DNA of 64,000 bases. It comes from Verrucomicrobiaceae bacterium (GTDB lineage Bacteria; Verrucomicrobiota; Verrucomicrobiia; Verrucomicrobiales; Verrucomicrobiaceae). The first letter of the stretch is position 1. Every line of letters begins with the position of its first letter. Below the pieces are notes generated by a model, which worked only from the letters and a program-made list of their open reading frames with translations, was not told the DNA's origin and searched no databases. The DNA lies in NCBI GenBank assembly GCA_027486585.1, contig JAIXOU010000133.1, forward strand, positions 62,001-126,000, given 5' to 3'. Positions 1,703 to 31,342 of the stretch are shown here, in pieces. The position numbers and the translations under genes are program-made.

Positions 1703-3769
1703 ATGTCATTGGCCCTCGAATCTCCACTTAACACTGTGCCGGAGCTCACCTCCCGCATGGTCAAGACGCTGGAGAAAGAAGGCCTCACCAAAGTGGCCGA
1801 TGTCATCTCCTGGTTACCCTTTCGACATGAGGATCGCACTCGGGATGAGAACGCCTCCTTTCAGGTCAGTGACATTCCCGTCTGTCATCGCGTACTGGTG
1901 ACCAAGACCGGTAACAAATTTTTCGGTCGCCGAGGTTCAGGCATGTTTGAGGCCAGCGTCGAACCTTCAGGCGGAGCCGGCATGGGCCAGCTGCTCACCC
2001 TGCGCTGGTGGGGCATGGCCTTCATGAGTCGCGTCATTGCCGAAGGTCAAAAAATCATCGTCTATGGCAAGATCAAGGAGTTCAAAGGCAAGCTCTCCAT
2101 GGATCATCCCGAGTATGAAATTCTGGATGATGATGAAACCGCCACCATCCACAGCGGCCGCATCACACCGGTCTATCGTCTAAAGGCTGGCATCACGCAA
2201 AAAACCTTGCGTTCGGCCGCCTGGCACATCGTTCAGGCACTGGGAGATGACTTCACCCAAGATGTCTTGCCCAAGCCCAGTGAGCAAGGCGAGTTCTCAG
2301 GCTGGAATCGGGCGCGCGCGCTGAAAGCCGTTCATTTTGCTGAAAGCCTCGAGTCCCTAGAAAAAGCGCGCCGTTATCTCGCGCTTGAGGAGTTTTACGG
2401 CTATCAATTACGCGTCGTTCGGCGGCGGCGCGCCGTCTTGGAGTCTGGAGGCCATGCCCATGTAGCGGGCACTTTGGCTCGCGACTTTGAGTCCGCTCTT
2501 CCCTTTCAAATGACGGGCGCGCAAAAGCGTTCCTTGATTGAAATCCAACAAGACATGGCCAGCAATGCGCCAATGAATCGACTGCTGCATGGGGACGTTG
2601 GCAGTGGAAAAACCGTCGTCGCCTTTGCCGCCATGTTGGGTGCTGTCGAGTCGGGCAAACAAGCCGCCCTCATGGCACCGACACAGATTTTAGCTGACCA
2701 GCATTACCAAACCGCGCGAAAATGGCTGGAGCCCCTCGGACTCCGTGTGGCGCTGAGAACAGGATCGAGGAATGAAGAATCCGTAACACACGGCGCAGGA
2801 AATTGTGAAATCGTCATCGGCACGCACGCGCTGCTTCACGATGCGGAACTCGTGAAGAACCTCGGACTCGTCGTCATCGATGAGCAGCATAAATTCGGTG
2901 TCGCTCAGCGGGCCAAATTAATCCAGAAGGGCAACACGCCGGACGTGCTGGTCATGACCGCCACCCCGATCCCACGCACCTTGACCCTCACCATCTATGG
3001 CGATCTAGACGTCTCCACCATCGACGAGCGCCCGAAGGAGCGCGGCAAGATCATCACCAAAGTTCGCCCTGCCAGCAAACAAGCTGATGCAGCCAAATTC
3101 CTACTGGAACAGCTTGAAGAAGGTCGCCAAGCCTACCTGGTCTATCCGCTAATTGAAGAATCTGAAAAGCTGGATGTCACCGCCGCTAAAAAAGGCCATG
3201 AGCAATGGTGCAAACTGCTACCAAATTTCAGTGTCGGCTTGCTTCATGGCAAGCTCGATGCGGAAGAAAAAGACCAAGTCATGCGCGACTTCCGCGCTGG
3301 CAAACATGAGGTGCTCGTCTCCACCACGGTCATCGAAGTCGGCGTGGACGTGCCGAATGCCAGCGTCATGTACATCCACCATGCCGAGCGCTACGGTCTA
3401 GCCCAGTTGCATCAGCTTCGTGGCCGCATTGGTCGTGGTGAACACACCTCTTACTGTGTGCTGTTTGTGGCCGATAAAGATGAAGAGGCCAAATCCCGCC
3501 TAGCCATCATGGAGGAGACCACCGACGGCTTCCGCATCTCTGAAGAAGACCTCAAACGTCGTGGCCCTGGCGATGTATTAGGCAAAGCCCAAAGTGGTCA
3601 AGCTCCGCTGAAGTTTGCTGAACTCTTGGCGGATACGCGTCTGGTCAGACTCGCGCGGCAATTGGCAGAGAAGACACTGGATGAAGATCCTCTGTTAAAA
3701 GCCAAACGCTTTGCTGACATCCGCGCATTCATTTTTCAAGAGGACATTCCGCAGGCGATGATGCAGTAG
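1703..3769 (+). CDS. recG: ATP-dependent DNA helicase RecG
   Basis: RecG is the superfamily 2 helicase that remodels stalled replication forks and branch-migrates Holliday junctions. The 688-aa product has the family's usual length. The N-terminal wedge/OB part (residues about 50-170) is followed by the helicase core: Walker A GDVGSGKT with Lys302, Walker B IDEQH with Asp393, motif III TATPIPRTL, and motifs V/VI in TTVIEVGVDVPNA and QLRGRIGRG. The C-terminal GPGDVLGKAQSG matches the TRG-type wedge-coupling region. The start lies 6 bp after glgB. The last 41 bp overlap the 3' end of the opposite-strand membrane protein gene. Confidence 0.96.
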   Translation: MSLALESPLNTVPELTSRMVKTLEKEGLTKVADVISWLPFRHEDRTRDENASFQVSDIPVCHRVLVTKTGNKFFGRRGSGMFEASVEPSGGAGMGQLLTLRWWGMAFMSRVIAEGQKIIVYGKIKEFKGKLSMDHPEYEILDDDETATIHSGRITPVYRLKAGITQKTLRSAAWHIVQALGDDFTQDVLPKPSEQGEFSGWNRARALKAVHFAESLESLEKARRYLALEEFYGYQLRVVRRRRAVLESGGHAHVAGTLARDFESALPFQMTGAQKRSLIEIQQDMASNAPMNRLLHGDVGSGKTVVAFAAMLGAVESGKQAALMAPTQILADQHYQTARKWLEPLGLRVALRTGSRNEESVTHGAGNCEIVIGTHALLHDAELVKNLGLVVIDEQHKFGVAQRAKLIQKGNTPDVLVMTATPIPRTLTLTIYGDLDVSTIDERPKERGKIITKVRPASKQADAAKFLLEQLEEGRQAYLVYPLIEESEKLDVTAAKKGHEQWCKLLPNFSVGLLHGKLDAEEKDQVMRDFRAGKHEVLVSTTVIEVGVDVPNASVMYIHHAERYGLAQLHQLRGRIGRGEHTSYCVLFVADKDEEAKSRLAIMEETTDGFRISEEDLKRRGPGDVLGKAQSGQAPLKFAELLADTRLVRLARQLAEKTLDEDPLLKAKRFADIRAFIFQEDIPQAMMQ

Positions 3770-8270: not shown

Positions 8271-8344
8271 AAAGGATGAAGAGTGCAGGATGAAGGATGA
8301 TTTACCCATCCCTCAGTCATTTCATCCTTCACTCTTTATCCTTT
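8271..8344. terminator. large iterated-word hairpin after the deacetylase gene
   Basis: Arms 8271-8293 and 8322-8344 pair at 21 of 23 positions around a 28-nt loop. Both arms are built from repeats of AGGATGA-like words, continuing to 8357. It lies 7 bp after the deacetylase stop and 20 bp before the GTPase start. It may act as a terminator, but there is no T-run, and its make-up resembles the other short-word hairpins in the window. Confidence 0.6.
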
Positions 8345-8364
8345 ATCCTTGATCCTTTGTCTCA

Positions 8365-26415: not shown

Positions 26416-27107
26416 CGCATAACGGTTTGCGCATGGATGGCATCGCATATCATCTTGAGTGAAGCTTCCAGGTTGCCATCGGCGGTTTTGAAAGCATCGG
26501 CATCAATGGTGAGCGGAGCGCCGAGGACAACGAGTGGTGCGCCGTATTGCGGGCATTGAATGGCTTGTTCTAAACTCAATCCACCGACGGCTTGCACGGG
26601 GATTTTGACGGCGTTTACGACCTCCCGCAGCTGATCCAGCGGGCTAGGCATGCGCTTTCCAGCAGCGGCGATGCCACGGCGCTCGTCGTAGCCGATGTGA
26701 TGGATGACGTAATCGCAGCCGAGGTCTTCGAGGAACTTTGCACCATCGACCATGCTCTCGCAGATCATGTTATCTCCCATGACCTTACAGCCAAAATCGC
26801 GCCCAGCTTTCACCACACATTTGATGGTCTCAGCATGAGCACGGGCCATGACGACGACGTGTGTGGCACCTGCTTTGGCCATCATTTCAGCCTCTAGATA
26901 GCCGCCATCCATCGTTTTCAAATCAGCAACGATGGGCACATTAGGGAAAGCTTTGCGCAAGGCACGCACGCCATGCAGCCCTTCGGCCAAGATGAGCGGT
27001 GTGCCGGCCTCTAGCCAGTCCACCCCAGCGCGCATGGCTAAAGCAGCCGTTTCGAGTGCTTCGTCGATGTTCGTGAGGTCGAGAGAAATTTGGACAATGG
27101 GTTTCAT
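26412..27107 (-). CDS. HUMPS/OMPDC-family decarboxylase or aldolase (hexulose-6-phosphate synthase-like)
   Basis: A 231-aa TIM barrel. The start is placed at ATG 27107 (MKPIVQISLDL), the natural beginning of the barrel; the frame is open to 27200. The catalytic beta-strand segment is VADLKTMDGG, matching the DxKxxD motif of orotidine-5'-phosphate decarboxylase, keto-gulonate-6-phosphate decarboxylase and 3-hexulose-6-phosphate synthase; the wording is closest to the last. No phosphohexuloisomerase, ulaD-type operon or methanol gene is nearby, so the substrate is open. Its stop overlaps the giant surface gene's stop tail to tail. Confidence 0.85.
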   Translation of the reverse strand: MKPIVQISLDLTNIDEALETAALAMRAGVDWLEAGTPLILAEGLHGVRALRKAFPNVPIVADLKTMDGGYLEAEMMAKAGATHVVVMARAHAETIKCVVKAGRDFGCKVMGDNMICESMVDGAKFLEDLGCDYVIHHIGYDERRGIAAAGKRMPSPLDQLREVVNAVKIPVQAVGGLSLEQAIQCPQYGAPLVVLGAPLTIDADAFKTADGNLEASLKMICDAIHAQTVMR

Positions 27108-27225
27108 GCAATCCAGCACTAAGGCAGAAGAGATGATCCACGTCACGACAAAGATCATGCGATCTACGACTCGTGATAACAACCCGATAGACGGCCCCAC
27201 GGCCCTTCGTTACAGCGGTCCCCCC

Positions 27226-29607
27226 ATGTTCCGTCTCGTTCCAGTTCTTTGCGTTCTTAGCTTCGTTTCCTCTTCCGCTGAAACACCTGTCGCTGCATTC
27301 CTGGATTCGCACTGCGTCGAATGCCATGATCCAGATGTCAAAAAAGGTGGACTCGATCTTGCATCCCTGACCTTTGATCCTGCAAATAGCACTTGGATCA
27401 AAGTCTTTGAGCGTGTCCGGGATGGTGAGATGCCGCCGAAAAAGAAGTCGCAGCCAGAAACGGCGGAGAAAGACCTCTTCCTCACTGCATTAAGAGAACC
27501 TCTACTGAAGGCCGATGCGGCGGACATTGCTGCGAAGGGGCGAGTGCGCAGTCGCAGACTCACACGCGTCGAGTATGAGCACACGATGCATGATCTTCTC
27601 GGCATCGACATCCCACTTAAAACTTTGCTCCCTGAAGATCGCGCTACCCGTGGTTTTGAAACCGTCGCCGATGGTCAGCAGCTTTCCCATCATCAGCTCG
27701 CACGTTATCTCGACGTGGCCGACCTCGCTCTAAGCGATGCCTTTGATCGTGCGGCAAAAGGCGACGCGATCTATGCAAAGCAGCATACACCCGAGATGCT
27801 GATTAAAAACCGAGGTGGCAACTATCGCGGCCCCGAGCTGCGCAACGGCGAAAGCATCACCTGGCCCATCGGGCTGCAATTCTTTGGGCGCACGCCGACG
27901 TGGGTTCCGGCAAGCGGCTGGTATCGTATCACTCTACGCGGCGTTCGCGGCATCAATCCCACCTCCGATGGCGCGGTTTGGGGCACGCTGCGCTCCGGTC
28001 ACTGCGAATCAAACGCGCCGTTGCTTTACATGATTGGACTCATTGAGGCCACGCCGACATCGCGCGACATGACCTTTGAGGCCTGGATCGAAGAAAATCA
28101 TCGACTGGAGCTACGACCGAACGACGGCACACGCAAAAACGCCCCCACCGGTGCCAAAGGAGGCAATGTGAGCTTCAGTGGCCGCAATCTCGAAAAACAA
28201 GGTTTCTCCGGCATCGCTCATCGCGGCATCGACATCAAGCGCATCTATCCGATCACCAATGACATCGATGTGAGGAAAAAGCTTTTCGGCGGCGATGGCC
28301 TAGAGGCTTTGAAAGCCGAGAACCTCGACAAACTCGTCTCCCGCTTTGCCACACGGGCTTTTCGCCGACCCGTCACTGAAGCACAAAGCGCCCCGTATCG
28401 TGAGATCGCTGCTAAATCGCTCGCTGAAGGCGATTCACTCACTGAGTCTCTCCGTGCAGCCTACCGCGCCATCTTGTGCTCACCGCGCTTTTTGACTTTC
28501 ATCGAGGCCCCAGGCCCGCTCGATGACCATGCGATCGCCTCACGGCTTAGTTTCGCCCTCTGGTGCTCCATGCCCGATCAAGAGCTGCTCGAACTCGCGA
28601 ACCAAAACAAGCTACACGATCCTCAAACGCTTGCGCAGCAAGTCGAGCGGCTACTTTCGCACACCAAAGCCAAACGCTTCATCGCCTCCTTCACCGACCA
28701 GTGGCTGAAGCTCAGTCAGATCGACTTCACCACGCCCGACATGCGGCTCTTCCGCGACTTTGATCCTGTCTTGCAGGAATCCATGTTGCAGGAAACACGC
28801 GCCTATTTTGCTGAGATGCTGAGCCGTGACTTAAGCATCACTCACCTCATCGACTCCGACTTCGCCTTCTTGAACGGCCGTCTCGCAAGGCACTATGCCG
28901 GAGACAATCAGACAATGAGATCATCCAACAAGGAGAAGAAGCGCCAGAGCGAGACTCTCCCTGTCTCATGGTCTGATAGTCTCACTGTCTCGGCTCCAAA
29001 ACCCGGTGATGGCCTTCAAAAAGTGACACTGGCTTCGCAGTCAAAGCGCGGTGGCCTCATCACTCAGGGAGCGATCCTCAAAGTGACCGCCGATGGCACC
29101 AGCACCTCGCCTGTCGTGCGCGGTGTCTTTGTTAATGAGCGCATTCTCGGTAATCACATCCCACCGCCCCCGCCCGGCATTCCAGCCATCGAACCGGACA
29201 TCCGCGGCGCGACGAGCATCCGCGACCAGCTCGACAAGCACCGCAACAACGAATCCTGCGCCAGCTGTCATCAAACCATCGATCCACCCGGTTTCGCTCT
29301 GGAAAACTACGACCCCGTCGGCCTCTGGCGCAGCGCCTACGGACAAAACGGCAAAGGAGCCAAAATCAACCCCACCGGCACAACGCCCGAAGGTGAAGCC
29401 TTCACCGACCTCGCCACCTGGAAGAAGCTCTACACCCAACACCATGAACACCTCGCCCGCGCCTTCGCCGAACAATTCCTCACCTACTCCACCGGTGCCC
29501 CACCACGATTCAGCGATGAGTCAGCGCTCGATGAGATCTCCAACACAACGAACCTGCGAGCGATCATTCGTGAGGTGATTTTGAGCGAGGTGTTTCGGCG
29601 GAAGTAA
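27226..29607 (+). CDS. DUF1592 planctomycete-type cytochrome c protein 1
   Basis: A 793-aa exported heme protein. The frame is open to 26932, but ATG 27226 begins a signal peptide (FRLVPVLCVLSFVSSSA). A heme site CVECH follows at Cys30-His34 (PSCyt1 type), with MPPKKK nearby, then DUF1587 (RLTRVEYEHTMHDLLGID), a carbohydrate-binding-like middle part, DUF1595/1592 (AFRRPVTEAQ; FTDQWLKL), DUF1588 (PPPPPGIPAIEPDIRG), a second CASCH near residue 678, and DUF1585. Residues 559-586 are an in-frame insert encoded by a hairpin and absent from the paralogue at 33532. It probably carries out electron transfer or polymer oxidation outside the cytoplasm; the substrate is unknown. Confidence 0.92.
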   Translation: MFRLVPVLCVLSFVSSSAETPVAAFLDSHCVECHDPDVKKGGLDLASLTFDPANSTWIKVFERVRDGEMPPKKKSQPETAEKDLFLTALREPLLKADAADIAAKGRVRSRRLTRVEYEHTMHDLLGIDIPLKTLLPEDRATRGFETVADGQQLSHHQLARYLDVADLALSDAFDRAAKGDAIYAKQHTPEMLIKNRGGNYRGPELRNGESITWPIGLQFFGRTPTWVPASGWYRITLRGVRGINPTSDGAVWGTLRSGHCESNAPLLYMIGLIEATPTSRDMTFEAWIEENHRLELRPNDGTRKNAPTGAKGGNVSFSGRNLEKQGFSGIAHRGIDIKRIYPITNDIDVRKKLFGGDGLEALKAENLDKLVSRFATRAFRRPVTEAQSAPYREIAAKSLAEGDSLTESLRAAYRAILCSPRFLTFIEAPGPLDDHAIASRLSFALWCSMPDQELLELANQNKLHDPQTLAQQVERLLSHTKAKRFIASFTDQWLKLSQIDFTTPDMRLFRDFDPVLQESMLQETRAYFAEMLSRDLSITHLIDSDFAFLNGRLARHYAGDNQTMRSSNKEKKRQSETLPVSWSDSLTVSAPKPGDGLQKVTLASQSKRGGLITQGAILKVTADGTSTSPVVRGVFVNERILGNHIPPPPPGIPAIEPDIRGATSIRDQLDKHRNNESCASCHQTIDPPGFALENYDPVGLWRSAYGQNGKGAKINPTGTTPEGEAFTDLATWKKLYTQHHEHLARAFAEQFLTYSTGAPPRFSDESALDEISNTTNLRAIIREVILSEVFRRK
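28901..28983. repeat. hairpin insert inside a DUF1592 gene
   Basis: Arms 28901-28920 and 28964-28983 are inverted repeats matching at 18 of 20 positions with a 43-nt loop. Both are built from GAGAC/TCAGAC-like words. The insert keeps frame and adds about 30 polar residues (QTMRSSNKEKKRQSE...) where the paralogue has none. Confidence 0.7.
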
Positions 29608-29612
29608 CAGCA

Positions 29613-29642
29613 TTGAAAATTGAAAAATCGAAAATGGAGATT
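29613..29642 (+). repeat. left inverted repeat of the S23 unit
   Basis: AT-rich arm made of TTGAAAA-like words, ending ...GAAAATGGAGATT, 6 bp before the S23 start codon. It pairs with 30035-30064. Confidence 0.75.
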
Positions 29643-29648
29643 CTATAA

Positions 29649-30017
29649 ATGAGTGCCAAGAAAGCTGAAGAAATGGAAGATCGGTTCCTGGACTTTGCGG
29701 TCCGGGTCGGTTCTGTCGTGGACGCTTTGCCGGACACGCGGCTGGGGCGGCACATTGCAGGCCAGTTGGTTCGTTGCGGCACATCTCCTGCTCCGAATTA
29801 CGGCGAGGCCGATGCCGCTGAAAGTAAAAATGACTTCATTCACAAGCTCGGCATCGTTTTCAAAGAGCTGCGTGAGAGTCGTATTTGGATCAAGATGATC
29901 ATCAAAGCTCGTCTGCTTCCAGGAAAACGCATGGCGGCCCTGCTCGACGAATGCGAGCAACTCAACAACATCATTGCCAGCTCTCTCATCACCGCGAAAA
30001 AGAACCGAGGTCGCTAG
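29649..30017 (+). CDS. four-helix-bundle protein, S23/IVP family
   Basis: A 122-aa helical protein of the family first known from intervening sequences of 23S rRNA genes, with relatives in diversity-generating retroelements. Recognisable segments are VRVGSVVDALPDTRLGRHIA, QLVRCGTSPAPNYGEADAAE and DFIHKLGIVFKELRESRIW; the last part is a fourth helix with a basic end. It probably oligomerises and binds nucleic acid; its cellular role is unclear in all settings. It sits alone inside inverted repeats between a DUF1592 and a DUF1552 gene that are normally neighbours, the same gene-in-a-stem arrangement as the rRNA insertions. Confidence 0.88.
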   Translation: MSAKKAEEMEDRFLDFAVRVGSVVDALPDTRLGRHIAGQLVRCGTSPAPNYGEADAAESKNDFIHKLGIVFKELRESRIWIKMIIKARLLPGKRMAALLDECEQLNNIIASSLITAKKNRGR

Positions 30018-30034
30018 TCCATGCCCCAATCTAC

Positions 30035-30064
30035 AATCTCCATTTTCCAATCATCAATTTTCAA
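30035..30064 (-). repeat. right inverted repeat of the S23 unit
   Basis: Inverted copy of 29613-29642; begins AATCTCCATTTTCC, 17 bp after the S23 stop and 15 bp before the DUF1552 start. Confidence 0.75.
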
Positions 30065-30079
30065 TCCTCTCTCCGCACC

Positions 30080-31342
30080 ATGAGTACCTTCACTTTCCAA
30101 AAGCATCTTTCCCGCCGTGCCATGCTGCGCGGGGCGGGTATCACACTGGGTCTTCCTTTGCTGGAGGCGATGACGCCAGCGTTTGCGGTGGTGAAGGAGA
30201 CCAAGCAGGCGAAGCGATTCGTTGGCGTGAGTCTGGCACTGGGGCTGCATAATCCAAATCTGGTGCCGGAGGGAAGTGGGCGGAGTTACAAGCCATCGCG
30301 TTACCTCGCGGGCATTCAGGATTTGCGGGAGGATTTCACAGTGGTGTCGGGCTCGTCTCACCCAGGTGTGACAGGCGGTCACACGGCGGAGGGCAGTATC
30401 TTTTCAGCCTGTCCCAATGCGCGCGGTTCGACGACGAGGAACACGATCTCGCTGGATCAGCTCATGGCGAAACATCTGGGACATGAGACGCGGTTCCCAT
30501 CGCTGGTTCTAAACACGAACTCGCAGACGAGCCCGAGCTACACAGAGAACGGCTCCATGATTCCAGCCGAAAACAGCGCGATGAAGCTCTTCACGCGTTT
30601 GTTTGTGAATGACACGCCCGCAGAGCAAGAGCGGCAAGCGGAACTAATCCGCAGTGGTCGGAGTGTGATGGATGTCGTCGGTGCAGAAGCGAAATCTCTG
30701 CAACGTGAGCTGGGAGCGGGTGATCGAGACAAACTCGATGCGTGGTTCACCAGCGTGCGTGAGCTGGAGCAGAGACTCGCCGCCAATGAATCCTGGACGC
30801 ACAAACCCAAGCCGAAAGTGACATTGAAGCCACCGACGCAAATCCCGCGCGACAACGAAGTGGCCGTGGAGCGCATCTTTCTAGACATCGTTCAGATGGC
30901 GCTAGTTACAGACAGCACACGCTTCATCACGCTGCACATCACAGGCAATAACGTGCAGGGCATCGAAGGTGTCGATGAAGCTTACCACAACCTCAGCCAC
31001 CACGGCATGGACGAGGAAAAGCTGGCACAGCTTGCCCTCGTCGAGCAAGGCGTCATCAACGAATGGGCTGGGTTCCTCCGCAAATTAAAGACCGACAAGC
31101 TCCTCGATAAAACCATGGTCTTACTCACATCGAACCTCGGCAACGCCTCCGCGCATGATAACAAGAACATGCCTGTCCTCTTTGCGGGTGGTGGCTTCAA
31201 GCACGGCCAGCACCTAGCCTTTGACCAAAAGGACAATTATCCACTGCCAAATCTCTACCTGAGCGCCCTGCAACGTCTCGGCTTGGAGGAAGTGAGCTTT
31301 GCCACGACTGAAACAACCATGCGTGGATTGGAAATAGCTTAA
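30080..31342 (+). CDS. DUF1552 Tat-exported protein 1
   Basis: A 420-aa protein. The frame is open upstream, but ATG 30080 begins a twin-arginine-type leader (KHLSRRAMLRGAGITLGLPL) before an Ala-x-Ala cleavage region, so it is probably exported folded. The mature part matches DUF1552: FVGVSLALGLHN, SSHPGVTGGHTAEGSIF, NTISLDQLMA, ITGNNVQGIEGVDEAYHNLS with HHG, LTSNLGNASAHD and FAGGGFKHGQH. The conserved His and Asp residues suggest a metal-dependent enzyme related to the sulfatase/DUF1501 fold; the reaction is unknown. The family is typically coded next to DUF1592 cytochromes, as here. Confidence 0.92.
   Translation: MSTFTFQKHLSRRAMLRGAGITLGLPLLEAMTPAFAVVKETKQAKRFVGVSLALGLHNPNLVPEGSGRSYKPSRYLAGIQDLREDFTVVSGSSHPGVTGGHTAEGSIFSACPNARGSTTRNTISLDQLMAKHLGHETRFPSLVLNTNSQTSPSYTENGSMIPAENSAMKLFTRLFVNDTPAEQERQAELIRSGRSVMDVVGAEAKSLQRELGAGDRDKLDAWFTSVRELEQRLAANESWTHKPKPKVTLKPPTQIPRDNEVAVERIFLDIVQMALVTDSTRFITLHITGNNVQGIEGVDEAYHNLSHHGMDEEKLAQLALVEQGVINEWAGFLRKLKTDKLLDKTMVLLTSNLGNASAHDNKNMPVLFAGGGFKHGQHLAFDQKDNYPLPNLYLSALQRLGLEEVSFATTETTMRGLEIA

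Follow-up and report, generated by a model that had tools for sequence, protein, structure and literature searches.

What is a lone S23 gene, enclosed in inverted repeats, doing between two genes of a protein-coding operon? To our knowledge, S23 proteins have figured since the 1990s mainly as the products of odd genes in rRNA inserts, without known function. In the stretch of DNA analysed here (64,000 nt, termed the window), an S23/TIGR02436 four-helix-bundle gene, recognised by profile match and predicted structure, extends from position 29649 to 30017 on the plus strand and encodes 122 residues. The site lies between a DUF1592 and a DUF1552 gene, outside any rRNA gene. The upstream neighbour (26932-29607, plus strand; the true start is maybe downstream of 26932) codes for a DUF1592/1588/1587/1595/1585 and PSCyt1 protein and the downstream neighbour (30080-31342, plus strand) for a DUF1552 protein, domain matches that agree with the identities proposed in an earlier note on this DNA. 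The former DUF1592-DUF1552 junction and its insert together occupy 472 nt (29608-30079). The left arm (29609-29645, plus strand) is built of tandem 7-8 nt words, ATTGAAA ATTGAAA AATCGAAA ATGGAGATT, and the right arm (30032-30068, minus strand) carries the left-arm words inverted. The arms measure 37 nt each and are 84% complementary; a single base separates the DUF1592 stop codon from the left arm, and 11 bases lie between the right arm and the DUF1552 start. The 30-bp repeats placed by the earlier note at 29613-29642 and 30035-30064 are thus real, although their extent is slightly larger.

The S23 protein matches TIGR02436 at 3.9e-19 (68.9 bits versus a curated cut-off of 24) and PF05635 at 6.6e-11 (42.8 bits versus a curated cut-off of 33.8), and these matches and the arm comparison agree with the description of a lone S23-family gene in inverted repeats. 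The arms fully enclose no further plus-strand ORF of at least 90 aa. An antisense ORF on the minus strand (29643-30050) overlaps the S23 gene and displays a weak Pfam match, below cut-off. Consequently, no transposase is present among the plus-strand ORFs of at least 90 aa between the arms, and the antisense ORF has no above-cut-off family match. Two inverted pairs of at least 24 nt within 1 kb were found in the 64-kb window, and the S23 arms are one of them. The predicted RNA fold of the unit is more stable than those of 100 shuffles (z = -3.2). An Rfam search of positions 29400-30300 at E<=0.1 revealed no match, to neither an rRNA nor a group I/II intron family.

The 23S rRNA intervening sequences of Coxiella and Leptospira resemble the window unit in having a gene of the same family in a stem. 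In the parts of PMC4990558 that describe it, the Coxiella element comprises 428 nt, has a stem of 28 bp and, ahead of its gene, GACAGAT heptamers in tandem, and is excised by RNase III in vitro; the same parts relay older ideas that such rRNA elements were mobile, and do not present the heptamers as a feature common to S23 genes in general. Tandem heptamers in the stem are common to this Coxiella element and the S23 units described here, whereas the window unit differs from rRNA intervening sequences in residing in a protein operon. An S23-type protein is likewise reported in rRNA inserts of CPR bacteria, according to the relevant part of PMC11270868.

The window unit has counterparts in its own genome. 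TIGR02436 matches were found at 11 places, eight of which are full length, and seven of the eight full-length S23 genes possess inverted arms at a score of at least 14. A genome devoid of similar repeat-S23 units, which the earlier note had named as evidence against a mobile unit, is therefore not what was seen. In the eighth full-length gene, L005 (region 1851-3318, G000:C113), the right arm is damaged, and its ortholog in genome G006 (L025) has both arms. A reverse-transcriptase-domain gene is located about 0.5 kb past the damaged arm, on the other strand. Three longer S23 members (L013, L014 and L015) comprise 225-270 aa; inverted pairs were identified at L015 and L013 in the reading of the window's own genome, none at L013 in the family-wide flank scan and none around the L014 gene. 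The longer S23-like L014 gene (1414-2187, 270 aa) itself contains tandem-word stretches in its coding sequence, seen as repeated DQSDPPDP-like peptides.

Arm sequences differ between the units of this genome and, on inspection by eye, every arm consists of 7-10 nt units repeated in tandem. The 16-nt core of the window arm, with one mismatch allowed, occurs in the genome only in the window and at one other place. The search for other copies of the 30-bp repeats that the earlier note had suggested therefore fails if taken literally, and fixed terminal repeats were rejected in favour of lineage-specific words: the stem that the note described is real, but it is a tandem-word array that varies by S23 lineage and not a fixed repeat. 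MITEs and REPINs are small inverted-repeat pieces dispersed between genes, some of them gene-less. S23 units are unlike them in having arms without a fixed end sequence and a word per lineage; a target duplication is not visible at the window site. In particular, an end sequence common to copies, as in MITEs and insertion sequences, is not a trait of the window unit, words being different between units. A role of DUF1592 genes as general target was rejected, since a DUF1592 gene precedes three of the eight full-length units of this genome but seven of 111 loci of the relatives and own genome combined (tblastn, three queries).

Arms of the same kind surround S23 genes throughout the family. For every S23 gene, the left flank was scored against the reverse-complemented right flank; right flanks taken from ten other S23 genes served as the control, and the threshold score of 14 was picked after the scores were seen. 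At this score or above, arms are present at 84 of 107 loci of the own genome and relatives versus 32 of 1070 mismatched-flank controls, at 60 of 78 loci from many phyla (among the best 80 matches) versus 31 of 780, and at 34 of 52 loci in the S23 copies of eight named genomes versus 8 of 520. The mismatched-flank background is thus 1.5-4% across the three samples, and loci without arms at the threshold number 23 of 107, 18 of 78 (among the best 80 matches) and 18 of 52, respectively. The other-phyla sample consists of the best 80 matches of the scan and the eight named genomes are those of eight of these 80 loci, so that the samples overlap. Flanks shorter than 100 nt led to the removal of four of the 111 relatives' loci and two of the 80 other-phyla loci; L014 and L015 are outside the 111, and L013 is inside. 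The relatives' sample is partly orthologous, its 107 loci forming 51 site clusters, 41 of which have arms in at least one member, and sites that are orthologous but diverged beyond BLASTN are possibly counted as different.

The arms are periodic, with a period of 7 in 47 of 84 and of 14 in 9 of 84 armed relatives' loci (56 of 84 in sum), and of 7 in 28 of 60 and of 14 in 7 of 60 armed loci of other phyla (35 of 60 in sum, among the best 80 matches); when shuffled, 73 of 84 and 42 of 60 (among the best 80 matches) of these arms, respectively, display no period. In the eight named genomes the best arm period is 7 in 27 of 34, a count made without a significance threshold. Words are mostly 7 nt long and number 4.4 and 4.6 per arm at the median, with a wide spread, and the middle 80% of units extend over about 430-590 bp. 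None of the 80 other-phyla loci, the best 80 matches, matches rRNA models, so that the classic intervening sequence of rRNA appears to be a special case of the S23 unit.

Inverted arms were also identified at four plasmid loci, cyanobacterial or Chloroflexota, and one of these armed units is flanked by cas2 and cas1, another by drmD and an MmeI-type gene. Plasmid defence/CRISPR clusters contain S23 units at L353, L354 and L355, in the arrangements drmD-S23-MmeI, cas2-S23-cas1 and DUF1156-S23-Swt1-type gene. Identity as a defence system was rejected, as three S23 proteins have no PADLOC match. One S23 query found no match in phages. The proposal of an S23 stem unit placed between protein genes with no transposase of its own fits these data, such units being present in the genome and in many phyla. 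Judged by its distribution, the S23 gene in a hairpin-ended insert with a lineage-specific word looks like a widespread, overlooked mobile unit. What is apparently new here is that the arms are arrays of tandem short words, inverted on the other side, family-wide around S23; the literature searched, open-access and with subscription papers mostly outside it, yielded no account joining non-rRNA S23 genes to tandem-word arms.

Mobility would leave empty sites, and relatives of the same genus were surveyed with the window DNA: 48 genomes were searched, 33 matched and 30 loci were read, one per genome. The DUF1592-DUF1552 junction is uninterrupted in 20 of the 30 loci and unreadable in eight, where the left gene does not adjoin or a contig ends; one locus is the window and one contains a different S23 unit. 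Without a unit the two genes lie 12-34 bp apart in the 20 relatives, most often 13-15 bp, compared with 472 nt in the window; for L371, L372, L376, L378, L384 and L385 the measured distance is 6 nt too long, as the start codon precedes the matched stretch by two codons, and junction loci at 72-76% DNA identity are possibly paralogs. The earlier note had predicted that removal of the unit leaves a tight junction of about 20 bp; the uninterrupted junction was indeed found in relatives, but at a most frequent length of 13-15 bp. Likewise, its proposed comparison with strains lacking the unit revealed the empty site at 20 of 30 same-genus loci, and the conservation of the unit at this locus in distant relatives, which it considered contrary evidence, was not seen. 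At L359, in genome G051, the window junction is filled by another S23 unit with another arm sequence (score 16, word AGACAAT, as in L005). The L359 S23 protein matches TIGR02436 at 4.5e-31, shows no BLASTP alignment with the window S23 protein and displays 72% identity to that of L005 of the window's genome. The 20 empty junctions, together with the other unit at L359, indicate that S23 units insert, and that one short junction has been used twice, by two units in two species. A target-site duplication is not visible at the window site, where the closest relatives are only 83-94% identical, so that one of a few nt could hide.

The units sit in very tight gaps. With neighbour genes taken as the longest ORFs, uncurated, the distances to the two neighbours add up to a median of 21 nt in relatives (n=76) and 33 nt in other phyla (n=55, among the best 80 matches), and sums of at most 30 nt were found for 43 of 76 and 26 of 55 (among the best 80 matches) units, respectively. 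Gaps of at most 30 nt make up 1.5% of the intergenic bases of the window, on an ORF basis. Between same-strand genes, S23 follows the operon direction in 45 of 57 cases in relatives, 12 of 57 being antisense, and in 39 of 39 in other phyla (among the best 80 matches). This tight-gap, operon-direction placement may reflect an insertion preference or selection for transcription.

Words differ between units, and close S23 relatives at other sites tend to share them. The comparison used 82 of the 84 armed loci, two being left out for an internal stop or a short protein. Among pairs without detected shared flanks, a word similarity of at least 0.5 was observed in 8 of 8 pairs with protein identity above 80% (three independent comparisons), in 18 of 35 pairs at 60-80% and in 13 of 2952 below 40%. 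Word similarity and protein similarity are correlated (Mantel r 0.45, with 0 of 2000 permutations as high). For the window S23, the nearest armed relatives elsewhere are L038, L062, L074, L076 and L087, at 58-62% identity and forming one site cluster; their word similarities to the window are 0.67, 0.25, 0.43, 0.50 and 0.50, respectively, and their words thus appear related in most, not all. Two units of genome G002, L039 and L078, are 81.5% identical over 428 alignment columns, which end at the outer ends of the arms. In G016, the S23 genes of L024 and L044 are 98.8% identical and one aligned stretch of their surroundings is about 81% identical, apparently the product of recent within-genome transfer or gene conversion. 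In L070 (reverse-complement coordinates 1403-1446 and 1940-1982), the two arms continue to match each other in inverted form into apparent host flank, a hint that fold-back copying could take part in arm formation.

These data bear on an explanation that needs no mobile unit, in which ordinary gene transfer and recombination disperse the S23 genes, and replication slippage and fold-back copying build up the arms in situ. Heptamer repeats are tied to polymerase slippage in the part of PMC4692102 that concerns their origin, the surroundings of L024 and L044 are paralogous, as expected after recombination, AGACAAT units follow different DUF1592 paralogs, and several units are vertically inherited; in particular, L008, L037, L068, L073 and L078 persist at the same site as old units kept in several species. 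However, copies such as L039 and L078 have nothing clear in common outside their arms, a single short junction is occupied by unrelated S23 units in two species, and the same word recurs in both arms, unit after unit. We therefore regard growth in place as improbable and retain insertion of a mobile unit as the preferred reading.

The AlphaFold2 model of the window S23 protein (mean pLDDT 95.7) displays a helical bundle. Its nearest solved folds are 2rld (E 3.9e-6) and 2gsc, followed by the Avd proteins of diversity-generating retroelements (4dwl and 8ub7), and the match to 2rld, with a TM of up to 0.90 by target length, identifies a four-helix-bundle fold. PDB entries 2rld and 2gsc contain five chains each, and the title of the 2gsc paper, as cited, speaks of five four-helix bundles. 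For same-site S23 orthologs, dN/dS ranges from 0.01 to 0.35 in 28 of 29 pairs, one being not computable, so that the S23 gene is kept by selection in place; this selection points to a local role more than to a purely selfish one. Some S23 copies, such as L040, carry internal stops. In the stems of same-site orthologs, 485 cells are unchanged, 14 changed on one side and four compensatory; as the four compensatory cells represent a single change in L078 seen in four pairs, covariation lends no real support to a selected stem, and maintenance of the stem by compensatory change was rejected.

The likeness of the fold to Avd brings in a route through RNA, in which units would be moved by a reverse transcriptase, as Avd is associated with one in diversity-generating retroelements. 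The operon-sense orientation and the short spacers at stop-start points are consistent with such a route, and the Avd model gives a weak match, short of its cut-off, to one S23 relative (L352). In contrast, the window protein has no match to the Avd model at E<=0.1, and the only RVT_1 match of its genome at E<=1e-6 lies on another contig (C113), which sets the window unit apart from a diversity-generating retroelement. At the same threshold RVT_1 is present in 15 of 28 genomes and absent from the S23-rich genomes G016 (nine S23, six contigs), G022 (seven, one contig) and G005 (six, 99% complete). Movement as RNA is thus disfavoured and we consider it very unlikely.

Hairpins without a gene accompany the S23 units. 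One, with the word GGATGAA, is located at 8272-8350 of the window, in a short gap that separates the gene for a polysaccharide deacetylase from a dynamin-like gene; its word is that of the S23 unit L010 of the same genome and its RNA fold has a z of -6.0. Elsewhere in the genome GGATGAA occurs in two more gene-less hairpins (contigs C101 and C83) and several one-sided arrays. Another hairpin, with the word AGACAAT of the S23 unit L005 of this genome, extends from 28901 to 28983 (arms 28901-28920 and 28964-28983), in frame in the DUF1592 gene. It is present in G003 and G006, apparently decayed in G010 and missing in G005, G007, G008, G009, G012 and G016 (21 nt versus 105), while G004 and G011 have unrelated longer stretches at the site and G015 is unreadable. 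By this comparison, the hairpin is apparently a hairpin insert turned protein-coding.

Junctions that hold S23 units in one genome hold gene-less hairpins with a different word in others. At the L009 junction, AATGACG hairpins were found in four of the ten same-genus loci read, its own included; at that of L010, hairpins of two other words in three of ten same-genus loci; and at that of L070, another hairpin in three of four near relatives, the fourth being empty. An 800-kb stretch of G016 was also scanned, giving 21 hairpins, six of them with a periodic arm, against one in the shuffled sequence, also with a periodic arm. The six tandem-word hairpins comprise the L050 unit, one with a word like that of L070 and four that by eye match no S23 unit of the same genome; other S23 units of the stretch were missed since the seed span was limited to 260 nt. 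The idea of one gene-less partner per S23 word failed in these 800 kb and was rejected. Overall, gene-less hairpins seem to belong to the S23-unit picture.

The strongest rival to a unit moved with the help of S23 arises here. Tandem-word hairpins might be mobilised by an unrelated enzyme of the cell, such as a hairpin-recognising transposase, with S23 as a passenger that has a local role, for example in operon control. The G016 hairpins whose words lack an S23 partner in their own genome (by eye), the purifying selection on S23 at fixed sites and the occupation of the same junctions by gene-less and S23-bearing hairpins of different words are all in line with this explanation. Words, however, follow S23 lineages and most S23 genes examined are armed, which is not as a random passenger would be, and the units showed no shared end sequence for a sequence-specific enzyme to recognise. 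Passenger status for S23 is therefore a serious possibility, though in our judgement an unlikely one, and the mechanism set out below is the one in which S23 itself takes part.

Its observed basis is the anatomy of the units, the empty and filled sites, the reuse of a junction, the arms that travel with the gene and the purifying selection. The S23 unit would be a small one-gene insertion unit, S23 in inverted arrays of about four to five words placed in short operon gaps, and we consider the full mechanism somewhat probable. Each unit would sit in a very tight stop-start gap within an operon and be oriented like the operon. The S23 protein may bind its words, as suggested by the five chains in two solved relatives and the Avd-like fold, perhaps with one word per subunit of the S23 ring. 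In the operon transcript the arms would pair and the predicted stem would be cleaved, much as RNase III cleaves the ribosomal version in vitro, and the messages on either side would thereby survive the insert. Acting together, S23 and host enzymes would allow units, and derivatives of them that lack the gene, to enter further junctions, a movement to which the genome comparisons point. Ribosomal intervening sequences would be those members that landed in rRNA genes.

A broader and more tentative proposal, which we hold as possible rather than probable, is that S23 units and gene-less hairpins form one phylum-spanning class of transposase-less elements, in which a five-subunit ring, the only protein of the element, reads an arbitrary short word present in about five copies per arm, and word and protein coevolve. 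The rRNA intervening sequences, the GGGAATC pairs of Xanthomonas, the pairs of Geobacter and the heptamer arrays of cyanobacteria would then be its footprints. Cyanobacterial STRR repeats and gene-less Salmonella elements might belong to this class as well. In the parts of the sources that describe them, the inverted GGGAATC heptamer repeats of Xanthomonas have mostly four units and lie nearer the upstream gene (PMC4692102), and Geobacter metallireducens has paired hepta/octamer sites (PMC2700814). Both resemble S23 arms as inverted tandem short words between genes, but differ from S23 units in being reported there without S23 and considered in terms of G-quadruplexes or regulator sites; neither main text (PMC4692102, PMC2700814) contains the term S23.

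If most S23 genes reside between protein genes in stems made of words, the ribosomal case is no longer the rule. Two puzzles, that of the S23 genes and that of the inverted heptamer arrays, would then merge into one testable question, whether each S23 protein binds its own word. It would also follow that operons are entered by a common one-gene insert that lacks any recognisable transposase.
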